From a virus: DNA of 44,070 bases. How positions within the stretch are numbered: the first letter of the stretch is position 1; each line of letters begins with the position of its first letter. The position numbers were made by a program, and so were the translations under genes. The notes beneath the pieces were generated by a model. That model saw nothing but the letters and a program-made list of their open reading frames with translations. It did not search any database and was not told where the DNA came from. Below are positions 1 to 44,070 of this stretch, piece by piece. The stretch spans positions 1 to 44,070 of the IMG/VR virus record IMGVR_UViG_3300030090_002465, one strand, 5' to 3'.

Positions 1-73
1 CAGATTGTATTATCTCCTCTAGTTCATCTACACAAGTAAGTTCCTCAATATATCTAAATACATTACTAAACAT
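1..73 (-). CDS. Small protein, partial second copy of the 38-residue gene at 43581-43697
   Basis: The start codon lies at 73 and the gene runs off the left edge, so only the first 24 codons are present. The nucleotide sequence is identical to 43625-43697, where the complete 38-residue gene is found. It is acidic, probably helical and of unknown function. Its ATG overlaps the TAA of the upstream 55-residue gene (TAATG), as in the rest of this leftward operon. It is most likely the same gene seen twice because the ends of a circular or permuted genome overlap. Confidence 0.7.
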   Translation of the reverse strand, partial: MFSNVFRYIEELTCVDELEEIIQS

Positions 74-77
74 TATT
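1..77. repeat. Left copy of 77 bp terminal repeat block A
   Basis: Bases 1-77 are identical to 43625-43701. Directly after them the two copies diverge completely (78-235 versus 43702-44015), and then a second identical block starts (236-290 versus 44016-44070). This is the pattern of overlapping genome ends that carry two alleles of an internal cassette. Confidence 0.9.
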
Positions 78-240
78 CTTTCTCCTCATAAGAAATAAAT
101 TCTACTTCCTGCTCTTTACCATTAATTGACTTGCTAACTGTCAATGATTTAATTAATACATCATCATCAGAAAATACCCTTACAATATCTCCGTCATTAA
201 TATCAATATTTAAACCAATTTTTAAAGGATGTTCCGCCAT
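73..240 (-). CDS. Small 55-residue protein of the left-end cassette allele
   Basis: It begins MAEHPLKIGL and has an alternating hydrophobic/acidic pattern (DGDIVRVFSDDD) that suggests a small beta-barrel, perhaps KOW- or Lsm-like. This is inference only. It overlaps the stop of the 78-residue gene at 240 and the start of the next gene at 73 by one base each, so translation is probably coupled. At the right end of the window the same genomic slot holds two other genes (58 and 47 residues), so this gene looks like one allele of an exchangeable cassette. The function is unknown. Confidence 0.75.
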   Translation of the reverse strand: MAEHPLKIGLNIDINDGDIVRVFSDDDVLIKSLTVSKSINGKEQEVEFISYEEKE

Positions 241-290
241 TACATATCCTCCTCAATCATTTTTAATTTACGTTTAATTTTTTCGTTAAG
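236..290. repeat. Left copy of 55 bp terminal repeat block B
   Basis: Bases 236-290 are identical to 44016-44070, the last bases of the window. The block covers the C-terminal coding region of the 78-residue membrane protein and the ATG of the cassette gene. Together with block A it frames the variable cassette. Confidence 0.9.
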
Positions 291-476
291 GTGTATGTCG
301 CTTTCTGGAATGTAGCTCCACAAAACGCTATTGACAAGTTCTACTTGTCTAATCTTTTTGTCTTTTTTACTTTCCAAACCAATATTTTTTGCAATATTTG
401 TAGTTTGGTGTAATAACCAACCAATAACAAAAGTTGTCAATGCAATACTTAAAGTTTGTAATTCAGCACTCATCAT
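240..476 (-). CDS. Small membrane-anchored protein (77-78 residues)
   Basis: An N-terminal hydrophobic stretch (about residues 7-24, containing ALTTFVIGWLL) predicts one membrane helix. A basic and then acidic cytoplasmic tail follows (KKDKKIRQ, KIKRKLKMIEEDM). Two adjacent ATGs are possible. The purine-rich AGAGAGGA lies too close to the first (476), so the second (473) is the more likely start. The gene overlaps the zinc-ribbon gene upstream and the cassette gene downstream. The function is unknown; an early host-membrane effector or structural anchor is possible. Confidence 0.75.
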   Translation of the reverse strand: MMSAELQTLSIALTTFVIGWLLHQTTNIAKNIGLESKKDKKIRQVELVNSVLWSYIPESDIHLNEKIKRKLKMIEEDM

Positions 477-694
477 TCCTCTCTTTCTAAAATATCTCGT
501 GCTAAATCTTCATTATCACAAGCATTACACACACCTTCTTTTTGTATGTAATTAAGTTCCCATTGTATTTGTTGTTTACTATCCCCACTTAAAAATCCAC
601 AATGTAAACAATATTTTTCTTTGTGTATCTTATTAAGTTTTTTGTAATTTTTCTTTTCTTTTTTAACTAAAAACTCTAACTCTTTAATTGTCAT
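473..694 (-). CDS. Zinc-ribbon mini-protein (73 residues)
   Basis: A very basic N-terminal helix (KKEKKNYKKLNKIHKEK) is followed by two CxxC knuckles, CLHC near residue 29 and CNAC near residue 56, that together form a zinc ribbon. The tail is acidic (DILEREE). Such small zinc ribbons in phage early operons usually bind nucleic acid or a host protein; the role here is inferred, not shown. The start overlaps the stop of the 36-residue gene (TAATG) and the stop overlaps the next ATG, which indicates translational coupling. Confidence 0.8.
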   Translation of the reverse strand: MTIKELEFLVKKEKKNYKKLNKIHKEKYCLHCGFLSGDSKQQIQWELNYIQKEGVCNACDNEDLARDILEREE

Positions 695-804
695 TATTTA
701 TTCCTCTCTTTCTTATTTTCTGTATCTTTTATATAATCTTTTGGCGAAAGACTAAAGTTATTTGCAGCTATCTCTTTTAATGTTACGATTTTATATTTTG
801 CCAT
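694..804 (-). CDS. Hypothetical 36-residue protein
   Basis: The sequence runs MAKYKIVTLKEIAANNFSL and ends in a highly charged tail with ENKKERNK. The pattern KIVTLKEIAANNFSL followed by SPKDYI could be a small DNA-binding helix pair, but no family is recognised. The start lies inside the preceding 81-residue gene (14 bp overlap) and the stop shares one base with the next ATG. Conservation of this tight overlap arrangement is the main support. Confidence 0.65.
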   Translation of the reverse strand: MAKYKIVTLKEIAANNFSLSPKDYIKDTENKKERNK

Positions 805-1036
805 TTAGATTTTCCTTTACTTCATCAATTACGCCTTGCACATAATTAGTTCCGTCATCCTCTCCCATAACTAACATAATGTTACCTATTAAGATGTCTA
901 TTTGTTTTCCGATTCCTAAGACAGAATCAGCCAACTGCATATCGCAGCCTAATTCTGTTGCTTTCGTATGAAGTTTTGCTCTAACTCTTTCTCTTTCCTC
1001 GTAGAGTTCTTTTAACTCTTTAGGTAGTTCGCTCAT
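791..1036 (-). CDS. Hypothetical helical protein (81 residues)
   Basis: The N-terminal half is strongly helical and charged (LPKELKELYEERERVRAKL) and likely forms a coiled coil or helical hairpin. The middle reads LADSVLGIGKQIDILIGNI and the tail is acidic. No family is recognised. Its ATG overlaps the TGA of the preceding 54-residue gene (ATGA). Confidence 0.75.
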   Translation of the reverse strand: MSELPKELKELYEERERVRAKLHTKATELGCDMQLADSVLGIGKQIDILIGNIMLVMGEDDGTNYVQGVIDEVKENLNGKI

Positions 1037-1203: not shown

Positions 1204-1362
1204 TCATTTCATATCCTCCTCGCACTCACAACAGTAAATGCTTCCTAATTGTATTTCTTTAGATTGTAAGCATAAAGCACAAGTTGGAAGTTCAAAATTG
1301 TCCAATGTAACCATTTTCCAATCAAATCCATCCCAACTTACTATGAATCCAGGAATACCCAT
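1204..1362 (-). CDS. Zinc-ribbon mini-protein (52 residues)
   Basis: The sequence has CALC near residue 28 and CCEC near residue 44, the four-cysteine pattern of a small zinc ribbon. Before it comes a Trp-containing strand region (FIVSWDGFDWKMVTL). The ATG overlaps the stop of the SGNH-like gene by one base, and a GAGGAGGAT purine run near its own 3' end can serve as the ribosome binding site for the next gene. The function is unknown; nucleic-acid or protein binding is inferred from the fold. Confidence 0.7.
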   Translation of the reverse strand: MGIPGFIVSWDGFDWKMVTLDNFELPTCALCLQSKEIQLGSIYCCECEEDMK

Positions 1363-2129
1363 TATGTGAGTATCCCTGTTTCATTTACATATCTTTTGAC
1401 TGCTCTAGCAATTCGTTTTGCTCCAATCTCATTTGGCTCAATCTCGTTGTAATAACATTTTGGAGACATTACTTCTCTAATGTCCAATACATCATAAGAT
1501 GATTTATATAAACGTGAGTTTTTATCTCTAGCTATTCTTGATATTCTGTCGTTCCACATACTTACAATAGCTTTCGCTGTGTAATCCATTCCGTAGAATC
1601 GTTGTGGATTGTATGCTAGGTTACCCTCGTAACAAGTCATCAACAGATAAGTAGCTCGTGTTTTAAATTGTTGCAACATAGTTTCGTATGCATTAGACAA
1701 TTTATCTAACTCACTAAGTAATAAACCATTTAACAAGTTTGTGTCATCAATTTCTTTAACCATTGAAATAAGTTTCAATAAGTCGTTTCCGCCTACACTA
1801 ACTACAACTAATTTAGATTTGTCGTTTATCTGATTTGCTTTTTCAATGCAATCATATATTGTATCGCCATCTCTACTTTGGTCGTTTATCATACTCATGT
1901 ATGTTTCGTTGGCGTAAGATTCTGCGAAATAGTCCACAGTTCCTTTGCCTGTTCTAGTGTAGGATTTACAATCAATAACACTATCGCCAATGAATGTGAT
2001 TTCTGCTCGTTCATTAATGTTCTTTCTGTTCAAGCTAGTCTGAATAGTATTTCCATAAAACATTTCATCCTGGCTTGAGCTTTGCCCATCAATAAACCAA
2101 TCATCTGGCATATCGTGTATTTTGGTCAT
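1362..2129 (-). CDS. SGNH/GDSL-like hydrolase, first gene of the leftward operon
   Basis: SGNH block I is present as FIGDSVID with nucleophile Ser50, block II as NDQSRDGDT (Gly88), and block III as VGGND (Gly114, Asn115). The usual block V Asp-x-x-His is replaced by N228-E-I-E231 followed by PNEIGAKRIA. The fold is clear, but the standard Asp/His of the catalytic triad is not; I recall bacterial SGNH proteins with a similar E-I-E-P form, so this may be a subfamily trait. The family cleaves esters, for example acetyl groups on polysaccharide or peptidoglycan, so a role in modifying the host surface or in removing modifications is possible. There is no signal peptide. The ribosome binding site AAAGGA precedes ATG 2129. 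It heads the leftward unit facing the 1.5 kb gene-poor region. Confidence 0.8.
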   Translation of the reverse strand: MTKIHDMPDDWFIDGQSSSQDEMFYGNTIQTSLNRKNINERAEITFIGDSVIDCKSYTRTGKGTVDYFAESYANETYMSMINDQSRDGDTIYDCIEKANQINDKSKLVVVSVGGNDLLKLISMVKEIDDTNLLNGLLLSELDKLSNAYETMLQQFKTRATYLLMTCYEGNLAYNPQRFYGMDYTAKAIVSMWNDRISRIARDKNSRLYKSSYDVLDIREVMSPKCYYNEIEPNEIGAKRIARAVKRYVNETGILT

Positions 2130-2926: not shown

Positions 2927-3284
2927 CTACTATATCCTCGTATTTAATCAAAATGGGTACACTACATGATGTATGTGAGTCAAAACAACACAATATATAG
3001 TATGTATGTAGCGTGATAGGAAATCTATGTGTTGCTCAACCAGGTAATTTTCACTGGCTTTCAAGGCTGGGGTTCAATGCGGCGCGGCGTCTCATATATA
3101 TGTACAGTACCTAGAAATATGCTGTTAACTAGGGGTACAATATGTAGTGGTACTAGATATAGTGGTGTACCTTATAAAGGCTAGTAAGAGGTGTTTTCTT
3201 TATGTTGGCTGTTATTTAACTAAGTAAAAATGGAAAGTACAGCTAACCCTGTGTCATCCCTCCCAACCGATAACAAATCTGTTT

Positions 3285-3407
3285 ATGACTTATTTTATAT
3301 ATTATGAAGTAATAGGCTTTGACCCTAGTTATGATGGTCCTGCTAGTCCACTTTATTTAAAGTTTATAATCAAGAATCCTTTTCTAAAAGCAGGAAGAAC
3401 ACTCTGA
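3285..3407 (+). CDS. Possible 40-residue protein, no ribosome binding site
   Basis: The open frame MTYFIYYEVIGF continues to a tail with NPFLKAGRTL and has a protein-like composition (DPSYDGPASPLYLKF). No Shine-Dalgarno sequence precedes ATG 3285. An overlapping frame from ATG 3230 (25 residues, MESTANPVSSLP) ends inside it and could be the displaced N-terminus of the same ancestral gene. It could be a small gene, a decayed gene or chance. Confidence 0.3.
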   Translation: MTYFIYYEVIGFDPSYDGPASPLYLKFIIKNPFLKAGRTL

Positions 3408-3516
3408 TTGTTAGGATAAATTTAGCACAGATGTTTCCTTTTTACAAGTTTATGTTATTATTGACCCATAGGTTGCAAAAAATAATTCTTTATTCATTGC
3501 ATCCTCCTTTCTGATT

Positions 3517-3638: not shown

Positions 3639-5219
3639 ATGAGAATAGGAAGTTTATTTAGCGGTATAGGCGGAATCGAGTACGGACTAGAGCGGTCTGG
3701 ACTAGCCACCTCTTCAGAATGGATGATAGAGATGGACGAATACTGCTGTTCTATATTAAGAAAAAATTTTCCAAATACATTAGTAATAAATAAAAAAGTA
3801 GAAGAAGTAAACCCTTTGGATTTACCAAAGATAGATATACTGACAGCAGGATTTCCGTGTCAGCCTGTATCTGTAGCAGGTTCGAGAAAAGGAGTTAAAG
3901 ATGAAAGATGGTTATGGGATGAAGTATGGAGATTTATTGATGTACTTCGACCACGATACTTTATCTTGGAAAATGTCCCAGGAATATTTACAGCAAACAA
4001 AGGGAAAGCCTTTGAAAGAGTTATCAAAGATATTGCCAAGAGCAGGAGTTATAGATTTGAATGGCAAATTATATCAGCAAGAACAGTTGGTGCAGCACAC
4101 CTTAGAAAAAGATTCTTCGGAGTTGGAACATTGGGAGACACCGAACACAATGGACCACTTGAATCCGAGGACAGGGGAAGCATTGGAGAACGTATTATAC
4201 AGAGGCGACAAGGAGAAGAAATCCAAGAGAAAGTCAACAGGAAATCTCAGGGAGAATCCAAAGATAACTCAGTATTCAACTCCAAGAGCAAGTCAAGCAA
4301 CGAAACCGATAAACAAACAAGCTCCGTCAGTGAAAGCAGGGAAACACGGCTCGACATTGGAACAGGACATGGGAGAGAGAAATCCAGAGTTGATAGGGAA
4401 AAGGCTGAACTATGGATGGGTAGCACGGCTCATGGGTTTTCCAGATGGATGGCTGAGTTAGGTTTACTTAATGTATGGACAGGTAATGTTAATAATTGGA
4501 GAACTCCAACAACAGCAGATAAAAAAGAAGATGCTTTAAAACACGCAACTAAATTACTACAAGGAAAAGATACAAGAGCATCAGGTGAATCTGTACAAAT
4601 AACATTAGCTGACCAGGTAGCTATGGATGATATAAAAAATAATCCTGAACTATTTGAAAAATATAAAGACCACATAATGATGAAAAGACCTAACTTACCT
4701 GAACAAAAAATCTTTGTAGATTATTTAAGAAGTATTACTTCTATAAAAGAACTATCTGAAAAAACAGATATAAAAAAATCTACTATAGAACATTGGTTTA
4801 GATACGATACTTCAGGCTTTAGTTATCCAAATATAGAAGATTGGAATAAAATAAAACCCTTTTTATCAGAAGTTAAATACGACAAAGAAATGACAACTCT
4901 TGAATCTTTTGAATGGAAAAGCAATAAACATAAATTTGGAACACCATTAACAAGTTCTGAAAGACCTTCTATTAAAAGAATAATTGAAGGAAACAATCCT
5001 AAAAAACAATTAAGTGAAGACCCTAAAGTTTATTTTGAAGAAGATTACGATATGTGGGAAATAGGTATGCCTAGGTCTATGGAAAACTATGAAGGAAGAA
5101 AAGAAAAATTAACAGCTTTAGGTAACGCAGTAGTTCCACAATGTGTAGAGCTTGTTGGAAGATTAATATTAAGAGCTGATAAATTAAAAACTTTAGTTTT
5201 TGACAACGATATAAAATAA
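3639..5219 (+). CDS. DNA (cytosine-5) methyltransferase
   Basis: It transfers a methyl group from S-adenosylmethionine to C5 of cytosine in DNA, which probably protects phage DNA from host restriction. The motifs appear in order: I FSGIGGIEYGLE (7-18), IV GFPCQPVS with catalytic Cys74, VI ENV (111-113), VIII AHLRKRFFGVG (153-163), and X ALGNAVVPQ near residue 500. Between VIII and X lies a long variable region holding the target recognition part and an HTH-like insert (about residues 360-400, SIKELSEKTDIKKSTIEHWF). At 526 residues it is long for the family. Codons 88-274 are also read in the +1 frame by a nested gene (3901-4461). The start has no Shine-Dalgarno sequence. The recognition sequence is not predictable from this. 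Confidence 0.93.
   Translation: MRIGSLFSGIGGIEYGLERSGLATSSEWMIEMDEYCCSILRKNFPNTLVINKKVEEVNPLDLPKIDILTAGFPCQPVSVAGSRKGVKDERWLWDEVWRFIDVLRPRYFILENVPGIFTANKGKAFERVIKDIAKSRSYRFEWQIISARTVGAAHLRKRFFGVGTLGDTEHNGPLESEDRGSIGERIIQRRQGEEIQEKVNRKSQGESKDNSVFNSKSKSSNETDKQTSSVSESRETRLDIGTGHGREKSRVDREKAELWMGSTAHGFSRWMAELGLLNVWTGNVNNWRTPTTADKKEDALKHATKLLQGKDTRASGESVQITLADQVAMDDIKNNPELFEKYKDHIMMKRPNLPEQKIFVDYLRSITSIKELSEKTDIKKSTIEHWFRYDTSGFSYPNIEDWNKIKPFLSEVKYDKEMTTLESFEWKSNKHKFGTPLTSSERPSIKRIIEGNNPKKQLSEDPKVYFEEDYDMWEIGMPRSMENYEGRKEKLTALGNAVVPQCVELVGRLILRADKLKTLVFDNDIK
3901..4461 (+). CDS. Nested out-of-frame gene within the methyltransferase (186 residues)
   Basis: This frame is +1 relative to the methyltransferase and lies wholly inside it. 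It opens after a TAG and starts at ATG 3901 with a strong Shine-Dalgarno sequence (AAAAGGAG, 6 nt spacing). The product has motifs I recall from phage proteins or domains that accompany C5 methyltransferases: SWKMSQ (about 23-28), ILPRAGVIDLNGKLYQ, EKDS, WETPNTMDHLNPRTGEAL, and the terminal WVARLMGFPDGW. At the same time the methyltransferase frame across this DNA holds its motifs VI and VIII. Both frames therefore look protein-coding. The function of the nested product is unknown; an accessory or alternative specificity domain of the methyltransferase is possible. It could instead be a frame-shifted relic, but it has no internal stop and its own initiation signal. Confidence 0.72.
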   Translation: MKDGYGMKYGDLLMYFDHDTLSWKMSQEYLQQTKGKPLKELSKILPRAGVIDLNGKLYQQEQLVQHTLEKDSSELEHWETPNTMDHLNPRTGEALENVLYRGDKEKKSKRKSTGNLRENPKITQYSTPRASQATKPINKQAPSVKAGKHGSTLEQDMGERNPELIGKRLNYGWVARLMGFPDGWLS

Positions 5220-35930: not shown

Positions 35931-36143
35931 ATGAAAGCACAAGTAAATTTAGGACAGATACTACAAGGTGGATTAGCAGCTTTAGTTGGTTGGTTATTTA
36001 AAACAGTTAATGATTTACAGCAAGAAGTAGCTACATTAAAGGCACAAGTTGCTGCATATCAAGATAGTATTAGTGGATTTAATCAAAATTTATTAGTAAT
36101 AGAAGAAGTTATTAGAGAGATATTATTTAAGGTAGGTGGCTAA
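35931..36143 (+). CDS. Small membrane-associated coiled-coil protein (70 residues)
   Basis: A short hydrophobic segment near the N-terminus (ILQGGLAALVGWLFKTV) is followed by a coiled coil (DLQQEVATLKAQVAAYQDSI). With the preceding gene it forms a pair of small proteins of opposite topology (membrane helix last, membrane helix first), which could work together in lysis or membrane anchoring. No family is recognised. Confidence 0.65.
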   Translation: MKAQVNLGQILQGGLAALVGWLFKTVNDLQQEVATLKAQVAAYQDSISGFNQNLLVIEEVIREILFKVGG

Positions 36144-36525: not shown

Positions 36526-38610
36526 ATGCTTCACAAATTTAATAAAGCGGTACGATTATTTATAGTACTATTCTTAGTACTTCCTCCTATACCTGTTTAT
36601 GCTGATGAAACAACTGTAACTGAGGGCTTTGATAACCAACAAATTAACGAAGATATTACTTTCGTTTATGGCGGTAGTGATACTACTGTTGCTGCCGAAG
36701 CTGATTGCAATAACAGTCAAGCACCTGGAAGTATCAACATTGAAGATATGGATTGTCACGGCTCACAATATTATGGAGCAGATAGATACCAAATTGGATT
36801 ACGTAGCTCAACAGATTCACTTACTATTGCATTCCCTAACTCTGAAACTAAACCAATTACTGAAGTAGGTTTAAGATATGGTGCTAGAGAATCTACAGGT
36901 ACAGCTACTGTTTACTATGATGATGATACAACTTCAACAATAAACTTTATTAATACTTGGGATGCTGCAGACCCTCAAACTGTAGAGAACAGTACAGCAA
37001 CTATAGTAATAACTGCACCAACAGGTACAACAATTAATGAGATAGTAATACCAGGAGCTTCAGATAACTTACAAGATTGGTGGCTAATAGATAATGTATA
37101 TTATAAATATACTGCTGTAACTCCTACCACTACAACCACTACTACAACAACTACAACAACTACAACAACTGTTCCTCCTCCACCACCTCCTCCAACTACT
37201 ACGACTACAACACTTCCTCCTGTAATTACAGTTATTATGGATGATGGAACTGAAGCTGAGTATGAAGAATATGAAGTTGAAGATGGTACAGTTGAAAGAG
37301 ACAATCAAAGATTAGCTAACTTAGAAGAGTATGGTTGTGAAATGACTGATGCTCAGATTGAGCGTGGTGATTGTATAATAGAAATAGAAGAAGAGGAGAT
37401 ATATGAAACAGAACTTACCGAAGGAGAGGAGCTTCTTGATGATGTCATTGTGGTACTTGAATTGGCAGATGATGATGAATTTGAAGAACTTGAAGATATT
37501 GAACTTACTGAAGAAGAGCAAGAGGAAATTGAAAGACAAATTGAGATTGATATTATGGTACTTGAACTTGAGGAAGAGTTGGAGATACTTGAGTTTGACA
37601 CTAAAGAGGAAGCTGAAGAATTTATTGAAACCTATCTTGAAGTTGAAGAATACATAGAAGAATTAGAAGAATTTGAAGAAATAGAAATTGTAATTGAAGA
37701 GGATATAGACTTAATAGATGTATTAATAGCTAATGATATATTCCCTCCAGACCCAGAGGATGTAGTAGAAGACTTAAAGGAGGTCCAAGATGAACTCATT
37801 GAAGATACGATTAATATCGAGGAAGAGATATTTGAAGATGAAGTTGAAATTTATAAAGATGAAGAACAAGTTGAAGAGACTGTACTTGAAATACTTGATA
37901 TATTCGATACAGAAGATGATAAAGAAGAATTATCTGAAGAAGTAATTGAAGAAGAAGTTGCAGAGTTAGAAGAAGTTATTGAAGAAATTATCGTTGTTGA
38001 TATTCCTGAAGTAACTGAAGAAGAGCTAGAAGAATTTACTGAAGAGGAGTTAGTTGAGTATGAAGAAGCTAAAGAAGAAGCAATACAAGAGTTTGTACAA
38101 GAGCTTGAAACCGAAGAAGTTATAGAGGTTATAGAAGAAGTTAATGATATTGGTGTACAAAATCTATCTGAAGCAACAGAGGAAGTACAAGAGGTAGTCC
38201 AGGCTGTAGTTGAAGAAGCTATTGAAGAGATAGAAGAACTAACTGAAGAACAAGTTGAAGTTGTTGCTGAAGTATTACAAGTAGAAACAGAAGATGTTGA
38301 AATTATTGCTGAAGCTGTTAAAGAAGATGAATCAGTTGCTACTGCTGTTGAAGAATATGTTGAGAGAGCTGTAGAGAATAAGGATGTAGAGAACTATACC
38401 CTTGCTGATGTTGTTACTGAGGTACAGTTTGAAGAGTTTATAGAAAATCCTATAGAAAGTTTAACTGATATAAATATACAAGAAATAAGTATAAGTGATA
38501 TAGGTTCTGATATGACTAATGACCAAAAGGAAAAAGCTCAAGAAGTTGTAGTGCCAGTTATTTTGACTAGAATAGCTAGTATGGCAGCATTTATAATGAG
38601 GAAATCATAA
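36526..38610 (+). CDS. Secreted Glu-rich protein with Thr/Pro linker (694 residues)
   Basis: Starting at ATG 36526 (RBS GGAGGAAAG), it has a classical signal peptide, with basic KFNKAVR, then LFIVLFLVLP, and a probable cleavage after VYA (residue 26). Residues 27-200 form a beta-rich domain. Residues about 202-240 are a linker of Thr runs and Pro runs. Residues 250-660 are extraordinarily acidic (about one third Glu) and helical, with phrases like LTEEEQEEIERQIEIDIM. The C-terminal VVVPVILTRIASMAAFI may be a membrane segment. I recall the C-terminal phrase ENYTLADVVTEVQ from other marine phages. The Thr/Pro linker is typical of acidimicrobial secreted proteins. The role is unknown; host-surface interaction or superinfection exclusion are possibilities. 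Confidence 0.75.
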   Translation: MLHKFNKAVRLFIVLFLVLPPIPVYADETTVTEGFDNQQINEDITFVYGGSDTTVAAEADCNNSQAPGSINIEDMDCHGSQYYGADRYQIGLRSSTDSLTIAFPNSETKPITEVGLRYGARESTGTATVYYDDDTTSTINFINTWDAADPQTVENSTATIVITAPTGTTINEIVIPGASDNLQDWWLIDNVYYKYTAVTPTTTTTTTTTTTTTTTVPPPPPPPTTTTTTLPPVITVIMDDGTEAEYEEYEVEDGTVERDNQRLANLEEYGCEMTDAQIERGDCIIEIEEEEIYETELTEGEELLDDVIVVLELADDDEFEELEDIELTEEEQEEIERQIEIDIMVLELEEELEILEFDTKEEAEEFIETYLEVEEYIEELEEFEEIEIVIEEDIDLIDVLIANDIFPPDPEDVVEDLKEVQDELIEDTINIEEEIFEDEVEIYKDEEQVEETVLEILDIFDTEDDKEELSEEVIEEEVAELEEVIEEIIVVDIPEVTEEELEEFTEEELVEYEEAKEEAIQEFVQELETEEVIEVIEEVNDIGVQNLSEATEEVQEVVQAVVEEAIEEIEELTEEQVEVVAEVLQVETEDVEIIAEAVKEDESVATAVEEYVERAVENKDVENYTLADVVTEVQFEEFIENPIESLTDINIQEISISDIGSDMTNDQKEKAQEVVVPVILTRIASMAAFIMRKS
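37121..37218 (+). repeat. Thr and Pro codon repeats (linker-coding microsatellite)
   Basis: Runs of ACT/ACA/ACC codons, then CCT/CCA codons, then ACT/ACG/ACA codons encode the Thr-Pro-Thr linker of the secreted protein. Such tracts are prone to length change by slippage, so the linker length may vary between related phages. Confidence 0.8.
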
Positions 38611-39791: not shown

Positions 39792-40974
39792 ATGTATCGC
39801 AAAGAAAAACCCTATACCTGAAGAGTGGGGAAATAATTTCTATAAATCAGGTTGGAAACCAGGACTAGAAGTCAACGAACAAAGTGGATTAGGAGAAATA
39901 ACACACGTTGGAACAGACCCTAATTACAGAGAAAAGTTTGATGACATACTCTTACAATGGGGATTTGACCCTAAATTATACGAAATTGAAGGCTCAGTAC
40001 GTGCATCTGCGTGGAATACACAACTAAAAGGTGGAGAAACTACTACTTTTTATGCATTTAAAGGGATTGTACGCAAAAAAGACCCAGGACATGACAAATA
40101 TTTTAAAGAATTATTCAAAAAAGCCTCTAAAAAGCCTCCTATAACGAAGAAATATAGCGGTGGTGACACTGCTTTTATGTTTTTTATGGCTGATTGGCAG
40201 TTAGGTAAGCGAGATTTTGGAGTTGAGAATACTATTGCAAGGTATGACCAAGCATTACAGGACGCAGTTAATAGAATTAAAGATTTACGTAGGTTGAATG
40301 TAGCTATAGATGAAATCTACCTTGTTGGACTTGGTGATATTACAGAAAACTGTACATCTAGCTTCTACGCATCTCAGCCTTTCAATGTAGAACTATCACT
40401 TATAGAACAATATGCTCTTGCACGTTCAATGATAATGAAAACAATAGATACTTTCCTTCCTCTTGCAGACAAAATAGTTCTTTGTGGAGTTCCAGGTAAC
40501 CATGGCGAGATGTCAAGGGCAGGAAAAGGTGCAGTTTTTACAGACCGTCTTGATAATAGTGACATTATGCACCTACAAATATGTGAAGAGATAATGGCTG
40601 CGAATAAAGAGAGATATAAAGGGGTTAAGGTTGTAGTTCCTAATGATTATCACCAAGTTATAGAGGTTAAATCAATAACTTGTGCCTGGACTCACGGACA
40701 TATGAGTTCTGGCAGTGGCAATGCAGAAAATAAGATAGAAAATTGGTGGAAAGGACAAATGTATGGTTTTCTTCCTGCGGCAGAGGCTAAAATTCTTGTA
40801 ACAGGTCATTATCATCACTTTCGCTCTAAACAACAAGGCGACAGGACTTGGTTTCAATCTCCATCTTTAGATAAATCAATAGATTTTACAGCAAGAACAG
40901 GAATGTGGAGTCATCCAGGAGTATTAACGTTTACAATTAACAAAAAAGGTTGGGATAACCTCTGTATATTATGA
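39792..40974 (+). CDS. Calcineurin-like metallophosphoesterase, apparent frameshift near the start
   Basis: Metallophosphoesterase motifs follow in order: MADWQLGKRD, VGLGDITEN, GVPGNHGEMSR, TCAWTHGHMS and VTGHYHHFR, which bind the two metal ions. The N-terminal 125 residues (GWKPGLEVNEQSGLGEITHV ... ILLQWGFDPKLYEIEGSV) match a layout I recall from actinobacteriophage members. The main frame is open from 39763 but has no ATG/GTG/TTG until 40177, inside the domain. ATG 39792 with a GGAG ribosome binding site is in another frame and stops after 9 codons. Removing one A from the A5 run at 39805-39809 joins the two frames and gives MYRKENPIPEEWGNNF. A one-base insertion, sequencing error, slippage or an ATT start (39784) are the options. 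Confidence 0.72.
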
Positions 40975-41080: not shown

Positions 41081-41142
41081 TTGATATTAGTTCCTATTAA
41101 GACACCTAACAATATAAGTATAAGATACTGCACTAATTCCAT
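41077..41142 (-). CDS. 21-residue transmembrane peptide
   Basis: MELVQYLILILLGVLIGTNI is a single hydrophobic helix. A strong Shine-Dalgarno sequence (AGGAGGAAG) precedes ATG 41142, and the stop overlaps the next ATG (ATGA). The combination argues that this very short frame is translated. The function is unknown. Confidence 0.55.
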   Translation of the reverse strand: MELVQYLILILLGVLIGTNIK

Positions 41143-41150
41143 TCTTCCTC

Positions 41151-41297
41151 CTAATTTTCTTGACTAAGTATTGCTGTTGCTTCTAATTCTTCAGCACAAT
41201 TCATACAATAAAAGTTATCTCCTGCAAAAACACCTTCTTCATGTGATAAATATACTATTGTTTCACATTTTTCACATAGCAGAGGCTTTCTTTTCAT
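41151..41297 (-). CDS. Zinc-ribbon mini-protein (48 residues)
   Basis: Begins MKRKPLLCEKCETIVYLS and has CEKC (8-11) and CMNC (32-35), followed by an acidic helix (AEELEATAILSQEN). The gap between the two CxxC pairs (20 residues) fits a rubredoxin-type zinc ribbon. It starts 4 bp after the stop of a 21-residue peptide. The function is unknown. Confidence 0.65.
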   Translation of the reverse strand: MKRKPLLCEKCETIVYLSHEEGVFAGDNFYCMNCAEELEATAILSQEN

Positions 41298-41300
41298 TAT

Positions 41301-41366
41301 TTACAAATTTACTATTAAATAAAATAATGAATACATTAATACAATAGATACTATTTTTAATTTCAT
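41301..41366 (-). CDS. 21-residue hydrophobic peptide
   Basis: MKLKIVSIVLMYSLFYLIVN is a basic start followed by a single membrane helix. Its ATG overlaps the TGA of the 36-residue gene (ATGA). The ribosome binding site is weak (AGAAAAAG), so coupling to the upstream gene is likely. Confidence 0.45.
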   Translation of the reverse strand: MKLKIVSIVLMYSLFYLIVNL

Positions 41367-41703: not shown

Positions 41704-41999
41704 TAGAAAGCTCCTTTCTTCATAAGTTCCTTTTCTTGTTTTGTTTTAAGAATCGCATAACATGTTTTTATTTTATAAATATGGTAATTCTCCTCTGTAA
41801 CTTCCTTGTATTGTTCAATACAAAAATCATTACCGTCCATATCTGTTGCGTATGCTTTAGGATTGTCATTTTTTAAACTACAGAAATGCTTTCTTCTTGG
41901 CTTACTTTCAACAGTAAAGTCATGGTCTGGAAAACGTTTCTGTAGTTTGTTTACAATTTTATCTAATTTAAATGATATAGGCTCTAATCCATCTGACAT
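41703..41999 (-). CDS. Hypothetical protein (98 residues)
   Basis: A helical start (FKLDKIVNKLQKRFPDHDFT) precedes a beta-rich middle (AYATDMDGNDFCIEQYKEV) and a basic C-terminus (AILKTKQEKELMKKGAF). It directly follows the annealing-protein gene (one-base overlap), so a role in DNA metabolism is possible. No family is recognised. Confidence 0.78.
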   Translation of the reverse strand: MSDGLEPISFKLDKIVNKLQKRFPDHDFTVESKPRRKHFCSLKNDNPKAYATDMDGNDFCIEQYKEVTEENYHIYKIKTCYAILKTKQEKELMKKGAF

Positions 42000-42925
42000 T
42001 AGCTAACCTTATCATTCCAATTAGTAATAATTACACTAGCTTGTGAACCTGTTAGGTTTCCATCTCCGTAAAGTTCTTTGAGTTCTTTAACACTATCTGC
42101 GTCAAGTTTATCTTGTGCTTTTCTCATAATGTCATTAACCCATTTCATTTGACCCTCACTAGCAGGATTATCTCCTCCAAAATCGCTCATTTCATCACCT
42201 CCTTGTGTCTTTTCCTCTGTTTCAAATACTTTTTCTACATTATTAATATTACCTGTAGATTCTTCATACTTCTTCTCAAACTCATCAAGGAATTTATCCA
42301 TCATACCGTTAGACCATTTCTCAACATCTTCCATAAAATCGTCCTCAGATACAAGCCTCGCATAGACAGTTGCCTGGATTTCCTTGCGTTGTGTTTCATC
42401 AGAACATATTTCCTGCATAACATGTTTCATTTGCTCTGCATTTTTATTGTTTTTAGTTGTATTTGTCTTAGGTTCTGACACCATCTCATCAGCAACTTTT
42501 TCCATTGCAGCTTTATCTTCTGCAGTAGGTTGATTCTCTTTCTTACGCATATCAACTTTCTCTACTTTGACTTTATCGTCTTTAAATTTCTGAGTCTTAG
42601 TCATTTCCTGCATAGATGGTCGCTTCTTACCACTACCTTGATACATCCAATTAGCTAATGCTCTACCTATTGCTGACGTTTCGCAGTTCTCTACCCAGGA
42701 AGTATTATTTACATAAGCATTCCCTTGCCCTTTGGTTTCCTCTGCTATACCTGTCGCTACAGGGTTTACGTCATCTATATCTTTATAAACTGACGCTTTA
42801 ATAACAATAACTTGTGCATTTTCTGACGTATAGGTTGGTTCTGTTTCAATTCTTCCGTTTGGATTATCTTTCCAAAACTTAACTAACCTATCCTCTACGT
42901 TTTCGTATTCGTCTTGCCATCCCAT
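41999..42925 (-). CDS. Erf/Sak-like single-strand annealing protein
   Basis: The N-terminal 110 residues contain KASVYKD, PVATGIAEE and the phrase VNNTSWVENCETSAIGRALA, which I recall from phage single-strand annealing proteins of the Erf/Sak type (usually N-x-TSALENCETSAVGRALA). These bind single-stranded DNA and pair homologous strands in phage recombination and concatemer formation. Residues 110-240 are a charged, poorly conserved linker. The last 60 residues (SEGQMKWVNDIMRKAQDKLD ... LTGSQASVIITNW) look like the small helical end domain seen in several phage DNA proteins. It is the only recognisable DNA-metabolism gene of the leftward unit. Confidence 0.72.
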   Translation of the reverse strand: MGWQDEYENVEDRLVKFWKDNPNGRIETEPTYTSENAQVIVIKASVYKDIDDVNPVATGIAEETKGQGNAYVNNTSWVENCETSAIGRALANWMYQGSGKKRPSMQEMTKTQKFKDDKVKVEKVDMRKKENQPTAEDKAAMEKVADEMVSEPKTNTTKNNKNAEQMKHVMQEICSDETQRKEIQATVYARLVSEDDFMEDVEKWSNGMMDKFLDEFEKKYEESTGNINNVEKVFETEEKTQGGDEMSDFGGDNPASEGQMKWVNDIMRKAQDKLDADSVKELKELYGDGNLTGSQASVIITNWNDKVS

Positions 42926-43111: not shown

Positions 43112-43304
43112 TTTCATCCTCCAATATTTTATAAACACGCTGTCTTGTTACATTATATATTTTTGCTATGACAGTAACTTTTACACCTCTTTCTCGTAGT
43201 TCCAACATATGTTCTTTTCTTGCTTTAATCATTATTAGCTTCTGCTCTTTAGCTTGTTCTAAATGGTCTGCAATTTGTGTTGCTTTTAGCTCATCATCAT
43301 TCAA
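43098..43304 (-). CDS. Helix-turn-helix DNA-binding protein (68 residues)
   Basis: The C-terminal half reads LRERGVKVTVIAKIYNVTRQ followed by RVYKIL, a clear helix-turn-helix of the sigma-70 region 4 / Hin-recombinase type: second helix VIAKIYNV, recognition helix TRQRVYKIL. The N-terminal half is a charged helix. A small transcription regulator of the phage is likely. It overlaps the winged-helix gene by 8 bp. Confidence 0.8.
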   Translation of the reverse strand: MNDDELKATQIADHLEQAKEQKLIMIKARKEHMLELRERGVKVTVIAKIYNVTRQRVYKILEDENALD

Positions 43305-43581
43305 CTAAATCCCTCATACTTTCTCTCTCTTTTGCTGTTGCTATAAGCTCATATGCACACGAGTTATTCGGTAAATCGTGTGATAATATATCGTGTCCAT
43401 CAGCTCTTAATTGGTGGATTGCTCCACTTATTCTTGGTATTCCATATTCATATATAAAAGTCATAGCGTGTATGTCTTTGTTTGGAGATAATCTTGCAAC
43501 CTCTAACATCCATAACACTTTTGCTTTCTGACTTTTTAATTTTGGAATAGGTCTGTCCTGGAAAAACTCAAATAATTCCAT
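43297..43581 (-). CDS. Winged helix-turn-helix protein (94 residues)
   Basis: The sequence shows a helix with KVLWMLEVARLSP, a second with IHAMTFIYEYGIPRISGAIH, then QLRADGHDILSH and a final strand CAYELIATA that can form the wing. I recall this type (RI/S-x-x-IHxLRxDGHxI) from small phage proteins with a winged helix. DNA binding is probable; it likely regulates phage or host promoters with the neighbouring HTH protein. The ATG overlaps the stop of the 38-residue gene by one base. Confidence 0.75.
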   Translation of the reverse strand: MELFEFFQDRPIPKLKSQKAKVLWMLEVARLSPNKDIHAMTFIYEYGIPRISGAIHQLRADGHDILSHDLPNNSCAYELIATAKERESMRDLVE

Positions 43582-43697
43582 TACTTACTTTCCTTAATTT
43601 GTATAGATTTAATTTGGTCTTTAGCAGATTGTATTATCTCCTCTAGTTCATCTACACAAGTAAGTTCCTCAATATATCTAAATACATTACTAAACAT
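43581..43697 (-). CDS. Small acidic protein (38 residues), complete copy
   Basis: MFSNVFRYIEELTCVDELEE continues as a helix with IIQSAKDQIKSIQIKESK. It is probably one or two amphipathic helices. The first 24 codons are repeated exactly at the left end of the window. Its stop overlaps the next ATG (TAATG). The function is unknown. Confidence 0.7.
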   Translation of the reverse strand: MFSNVFRYIEELTCVDELEEIIQSAKDQIKSIQIKESK

Positions 43698-43701
43698 TAT
43701 T
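43625..43701. repeat. Right copy of 77 bp terminal repeat block A
   Basis: It is identical to bases 1-77. The similarity ends at 43702, in the stop codon of the 47-residue cassette gene. Confidence 0.9.
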
Positions 43702-43844
43702 TATTCCTCTCTTTTAATTGGTGTTATTGTGTCAAATCTTTCATTAATAGATAAGTTTTCATTTATATAATCGCTTTGATAATCGTATAAATTTCCATAC
43801 CCATCTTGTAATACAATTTTATGAACATAATATTCTTTAGCCAT
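43701..43844 (-). CDS. Cassette gene, 47-residue protein
   Basis: The sequence MAKEYYVHKIVLQDGYGNLY then DYQSDYINENLSINERFD is a short beta-rich protein of unknown function. It and the next gene occupy the slot that in the left-end allele holds a single unrelated 55-residue gene. The ATG overlaps the TAA of the 58-residue gene by one base. Confidence 0.68.
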   Translation of the reverse strand: MAKEYYVHKIVLQDGYGNLYDYQSDYINENLSINERFDTITPIKREE

Positions 43845-44020
43845 TATTCCACCTCTAATTCGCTTATGTTGTAAATTAAACTAGGTTCACAACCCTCTTC
43901 TTGCCAACTATCGTCATCATCTAAAATAACAACTTTGTTGCCAATATCGTGTCTAATTATTTTTCCTGTAATATCTTGTCCAATAACTTTAACTCTTGTA
44001 CCTATATCAAAAGTAGCCAT
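43844..44020 (-). CDS. Cassette gene, KOW/SH3-like 58-residue protein
   Basis: FDIGTRVKVIGQDITGKII followed by RHDIGNKVVILDDDDSW has the G-x-x-V-x-V ... G-x-V/I ... V-x-x-D pattern of small SH3- or KOW-type beta-barrels that bind nucleic acid or protein. The C-terminus ends LIYNISELEVE. It overlaps the 78-residue gene by one base at its start and the 47-residue gene at its end. Confidence 0.7.
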   Translation of the reverse strand: MATFDIGTRVKVIGQDITGKIIRHDIGNKVVILDDDDSWQEEGCEPSLIYNISELEVE

Positions 44021-44070
44021 TACATATCCTCCTCAATCATTTTTAATTTACGTTTAATTTTTTCGTTAAG
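44016..44070. repeat. Right copy of 55 bp terminal repeat block B
   Basis: It is identical to bases 236-290 and runs to the last base of the window. It thus joins the right end to the gene that is complete at 240-476. Confidence 0.9.
44020..44070 (-). CDS. Partial second copy of the 78-residue membrane protein gene (C-terminus)
   Basis: Only the last 16 codons plus stop (ending KLKMIEEDM) are inside the window. The sequence is identical to 240-290, so it is the same gene as the one complete near the left end. Confidence 0.75.
   Translation of the reverse strand, partial: LNEKIKRKLKMIEEDM

Follow-up and report, generated by a model that had tools for sequence, protein, structure and literature searches.

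Alternative mini-gene cassettes at the two ends of a marine phage contig and apparent exchange of whole genes between start and stop codons

Genes and repeated blocks at the contig ends

The window, i.e. the whole stretch of DNA analysed here, is the complete virus record IMGVR_UViG_3300030090_002465 (G000) of 44070 bases, which most likely covers the genome of a marine tailed phage once. The closest annotated relatives of its capsid and terminase belong mostly to actinobacterial phages (24–32% identity), and a DNA search against annotated phages gave no match to the window. No host is claimed, since the genome-bin matches point to four different groups.

The ends of the window were compared by a search for exact maximal matches. 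Two blocks of 77 bp and 55 bp occur at both ends in identical order and orientation (Table 1), which is far beyond chance. They are confined to the first 290 and the last 446 bases, and besides them no match of at least 12 bp was found between the left and right ends. The blocks frame two non-homologous segments: cassette A at the left end, with a specific part of 158 bp holding one gene of 55 aa, and cassette B at the right end, with a specific part of 314 bp (43702–44015) holding genes of 58 and 47 aa. This framing, the gene contents and the location of the junctions at gene boundaries had been described in an initial annotation of this DNA and were all reproduced here. At the side of the 77-bp block the junction stops at the (TA)ATG of the shared 38-aa gene; at the side of the 55-bp block it runs through ATGGC, common to the 55-aa and 58-aa genes. 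That annotation lacked two details, namely that the 77-bp block comprises most of the 38-aa gene together with the TAATG joint, and that the 55-bp block is the 3' end of the 78-aa gene. Searches of the mini-genes against Pfam and PHROG gave no significant match, and for this reason no function is claimed for A or B.

Table 1. Features of the window at and near the mini-gene slot.
Feature	Position	Strand	Evidence or remark
77-bp block, left copy; identical to 43625–43701	1..77	.	exact match
55-aa mini-gene, allele A	73..240	-	homologue in G002/L007, homology -2 to +2 of gene
Cassette A, specific part	78..235	-	gene 98.2% identical in G002/L007
55-bp block, left copy: 3' end of 78-aa gene, its Shine-Dalgarno site, ATGGC	236..290	.	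exact match
78-aa mini-gene, slot neighbour	240..476	-	first 49 bp recur with GTG start in G002, G003
73-aa mini-gene	473..694	-	L161 98.6% DNA, L162 95.4%, other gene orders
20-nt joint AAAGAGAGGAATAAATAATG	692..711	-	exact copy at 43695–43714
36-aa mini-gene	694..804	-	tail supplies Shine-Dalgarno site AAGAAAGAGAGGA found at several joints
81-aa mini-gene	791..1036	-	in most slot versions
255-aa GDSL-lipase-like gene, conserved slot border	1362..2129	-	PF13472, 1e-9
Probable exonuclease	40177..40974	+	phrog_284, 3e-51
Second gain/loss site, 48-aa gene	41142..41363	-	absent from L126, start codon-to-start codon join
308-aa protein, probable single-strand annealing protein (Rad52/Erf type), near slot	41999..42925	-	by relatives
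94-aa gene, conserved slot border	43297..43581	-	comparison of slot versions
38-aa mini-gene common to both alleles	43581..43697	-	gene-by-gene homology
77-bp block, right copy	43625..43701	.	exact match
47-aa mini-gene, second gene of allele B	43701..43844	-	divergent relative by eye, L162 2118–2261
58-aa mini-gene, first gene of allele B	43844..44020	-	96–97% identical in L133, L134 as single-gene island
55-bp block, right copy; contig end	44016..44070	.	exact match

Another part of the window, 3100–3412, contains no long gene and lies upstream of a cytosine methylase gene (3639–5219). Its sequence is conserved among about 40 of the fetched relatives, of which many are distant, and gave no match to Rfam or to tRNAs. 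Possibly it is a regulatory region, an origin or a structured RNA.

Two fillings of one slot

A 99.9%-identical contig from another metagenome (IMGVR 3300030116_006571; L125/L132) passes through the join of the window ends and contains B only. It matches the window at 99.97% over 3566 bp (3801–236) and at 99.94% over 1707 bp (44070–42364), with B in between. The 43301-bp record 3300030329_002291 (G002), about 94% identical to the window over most of its length, begins near window position 36810, finishes near 36136 and spans the join with A only. None of the fetched records contains A and B together. A and B thus fill one slot as alternatives, and since contigs from other metagenomes pass through the join, the map is circular or permuted. 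The search of relatives for either cassette, suggested in the initial annotation, located B in L125/L132 and A in G002, and its proposal of two alleles at the ends of a circular or permuted genome is supported by contigs which join these ends through the one or the other.

As expected of a population bubble, the two ends of the contig cover overlapping sequence of the genome, with a difference restricted to a segment inside it. Most likely the assembler met two alleles at the slot and the contig broke there; the genome would have been closed up to the bubble and one allele written at each end. A and B are probably two versions within one phage population, as had been proposed. Their placement in one population is deduced from the assembly of both cassettes into a single contig. 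Both 55 and 77 are in the usual SPAdes k series, and the shared lengths may correspond to assembler k values, which is suggestive only. Strain heterogeneity is known to hamper viral assembly (PMC5610896). As in such cases, a genome-length contig stops where strains differ, but here both alleles are present on one contig, one per end, so that the allele pair can be read directly. The A end of the contig is only 290 bp long and could represent a minor or mis-joined strain.

The occurrence of both cassettes on one contig would also be compatible with their presence on one molecule, either as unequal terminal repeats or through a partial tandem duplication whose middle parts have diverged. This is very improbable given that the near-identical L125 goes from B directly into window position 291 onward, that G002 goes from A directly into the other flank, and that the two cassettes are never combined in the records fetched. 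It is somewhat easier to imagine, though still unlikely, that the A end is an assembly chimera in which the cassette of a co-occurring phage species was joined at the 77- and 55-bp stretches: A is backed in this genome by those 290 bp only, and elsewhere its gene is known only from the 94%-identical G002, while the near-identical L125 has B. However, A adjoins the 78-aa and 38-aa genes in the window, whereas in G002 it is flanked by the 94-aa gene and by a relative of the 78-aa gene that starts with GTG, so that A is not just a copy taken from a G002-like contig. L126 moreover shares, over 87 bp, the A-type joint before the 38-aa gene, which means that this joint exists in nature.

Slot versions, moved genes and the joints between them

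The slot, which lies between the conserved 94-aa and GDSL genes, is a hypervariable run of mini-genes, and seven gene contents were found in the window and its near relatives. The lengths of the encoded proteins (aa) are 52-54-81-36-73-78-55-38 in the window with A; 52-54-81-36-73-78-58-47-38 in the window with B and in L125; 52-98-48-38, plus uncertain short ORFs, in L126; 52-80-41 in L129; 57-81-41-72 in G001; 57-78-39-55 in G002; and 52-77-39 in G003. When these versions are compared, homology ends within 15 bp of a start codon at 21 of 25 distinct sites (20.7% expected; p 2e-11, an approximate value because several of the 25 sites are homologous versions of one joint) and within 8 bp at 18 of them (11.4% expected). 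The ends of homology thus coincide with gene boundaries, as gene-level mosaicism predicts, and few fall within genes (+33 in the 81-aa gene, +49 in the 78-aa gene). A second site behaves like the main slot: its 48-aa gene is absent in L126, L005 and L007, where the neighbours are joined at start codons. The earlier picture of two cassettes is extended by these many additional states and by the second locus.

The homology of single genes was examined gene by gene. An all-against-all search for isolated homology blocks was replaced, since conserved structural regions were mixed into its results. Single mini-genes recur at 95–99% DNA identity in unrelated neighbourhoods, with homology from start to stop codon. 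The copies of the 58-aa gene in L133 and L134 have wholly different neighbours and are homologous from 2 nt before ATG to 2–5 nt after the stop codon. For the 73-aa gene, homology (over 218 bp in L161) extends in L161 and L162 from 2 nt before ATG to 6–7 nt before the end of the stop codon. The terminases of these two phages share 58–59% protein identity with that of the window, i.e. the exchanged gene is more alike than the backbone (98.6% DNA identity against 58% protein identity of the terminase). Homology of the 55-aa gene with its copy in G002 is equally confined to the gene, and the upstream joint differs. The suggestion of the initial annotation that whole mini-genes are exchanged at start/stop overlaps agrees well with these genes, the homology of which ends no more than 7 nt from start or stop codons. 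Judged by sequence, all three look like recent transfers, one gene at a time. The 73-aa gene copy in L162 (about 3000–3220) seems to be frameshifted in a T run, possibly by a sequencing error. The 47-aa gene which resembles that of the window lies in the same region of L162.

Most mini-gene borders, read in the sense of the genes, are TAATG or ATGA overlaps. The Shine-Dalgarno (SD) sequence is spelled by the last codons of the preceding gene at 10 of 17 borders in the minus-strand arm of the window and at 10 of 12 borders in a stretch of L134. In the fetched loci, the share of Glu among the four C-terminal residues is 36% in mini-genes with TAATG joints and 9% in those separated by 25 bp or more from the next gene, compared with 7.6% inside these proteins. 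The 20-nt joint occurs exactly twice in the window (0.01 expected). Conserved sequence is therefore present at the joints as the 20-nt repeat, the SD-TAATG overlaps and the Glu-rich tails. Since a unit from ATG to TAATG carries the ribosome-binding site of its successor, a swap of such a unit keeps the neighbours readable. In L134 (2600–4300) nine consecutive borders have TAATG after a purine-rich SD, and most of the tails resemble EEE or EKE.

Some joints appear to bear traces of rearrangement. L126 and L129 carry a joint in which the 36-aa gene's tail (AAGAAAGAGAGGA) meets that of the A gene (GAGGAGAAAGAATAATG), the two tails having only GAGGA in common; this joint looks like a deletion between two SD sites. 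In G001, 28 nt of the tail of the 36-aa gene, SD included, are repeated before the next gene. No described precedent for a TAATG chain with tail-encoded SDs as interchangeable joints was found in a limited literature search, which is weak evidence.

Exchange of mini-genes and relation to known systems

Taken as a whole, the data are best explained by a circular or permuted genome with a slot for alleles A and B, in which mini-genes are swapped from start to stop codon (probability about 0.8). The initial reading, two alleles of one slot and exchange of whole mini-genes at start/stop overlaps, largely holds, with neither half fully proven. The slot lies in an operon whose tiny genes are linked through TAATG or ATGA overlaps, with the last codons of many of them forming the SD site of the next one. 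Owing to such joints, a gene could be replaced from start codon to stop codon without harm to its neighbours. We infer that A and B coexisted in one sample, that this caused the break in the assembly, and that recombination took place at or near SD-TAATG joints during co-infection, probably assisted by the annealing protein and exonuclease of the phage itself.

The window's 308-aa protein is a probable single-strand annealing protein, by indirect evidence. Its counterparts in L068 and L041, which share its C-terminal part, both match the annealing proteins of phrog_3290, and that of L068 also matches PF04098 above the cut-off. The structure model of the 308-aa protein itself is poor, and its fold search returned nothing at E ≤ 0.001, so the annealing role rests on the relatives. 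The N-terminal parts of these counterparts (L068, 2979–3941; L041, 1848–2813) differ from that of the window protein and are Rad52/Erf-like. This suggests that the annealing domain itself may be swapped.

As for the mechanism, the start-codon joints could have arisen by random illegitimate recombination followed by selection against broken genes, which is compatible with the two alleles and is the favoured view for mycobacteriophages (PMC3029335). The chances of this are close to even. Tightly overlapping genes offer little other room for junctions, and in a small sample the joints on either side of exchanged genes show no greater similarity than random pairs of joints do; this comparison does not favour guidance by joint homology, and random recombination with selection remains a full rival. 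The use of the shared GAGGA in L126 and L129, the 28-nt copy in G001 and the reuse of the exact 20-nt joint speak against a purely random process. A more far-reaching reading appears rather doubtful: the mini-genes would be self-linking units from ATG to TAATG which encode, in a Glu-rich tail, the ribosome-binding site of the next gene, the repeated joint would allow the annealing protein to shuffle them singly with translation still coupled, and this modular architecture would have been selected for exchange. The many slot states and small cassettes might also bring to mind a programmed diversity device such as an invertase, a diversity-generating element or an integron-like array, but its probability is negligible: every slot version has the same orientation, the joints are plain SD-TAATG sequences, and no invertase or reverse transcriptase gene was found among the subset of proteins searched.

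The start-to-stop exchange preferred here resembles several known systems. Gene-boundary mosaicism and boundary sequences are established ideas (PMC3029335), and short conserved boundary or linker sequences have been discussed (PMC3029335, PMC3861242). The slot has in common with such mosaicism new joints located at the borders of genes, the swapping of small genes as units and conserved joint sequence; the difference lies in the nature of the joint, which at this locus is a signal for translation (SD plus TAATG), is encoded by the end of the upstream gene and recurs at many borders. In mycobacteriophage Island3 gene 68, compared with Brujita (PMC3029335), an extra small gene repeats the tail of the upstream gene, like the 72-aa gene of G001, but the repeat is about 50 bp there as against 5 to 28 nt and many genes here. 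Hyperplastic regions of T4-type phages, shuffled through PeSL promoter/stem-loop cassettes according to work cited in PMC4503421, share with the slot hypervariable small genes of unknown function and repeated short intergenic elements. Scans for promoters and terminators at the slot gene borders remained at chance level, with no enrichment of the early promoter and stem-loop that mark PeSL borders, and overlap of the genes leaves almost no room for such elements. Morons, too, are small genes that occur singly in one relative and are lacking from another, but they carry their own promoter and terminator (PMC3029335), whereas the slot genes appear without them and most overlap their neighbours by TAATG or ATGA.

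Whether phage mosaic joints originate from dedicated linkers or from random recombination plus selection is not established (PMC3861242). The locus described here is a clear and useful example of mosaicism of a known kind, in which the joint is unusually explicit. It brings together almost identical genomes whose slot is filled differently, single genes that have moved between distantly related phages, scars of deletion within a ribosome-binding site, and a recurring joint for which tolerance of swaps has an evident reason. It also shows that a contig of linear appearance can be a closed genome interrupted at an allele, with consequences for how the completeness of uncultivated viruses is judged. 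As far as can be read from their genomes, these related phages show mini-genes being traded as whole units cut at start and stop signals.
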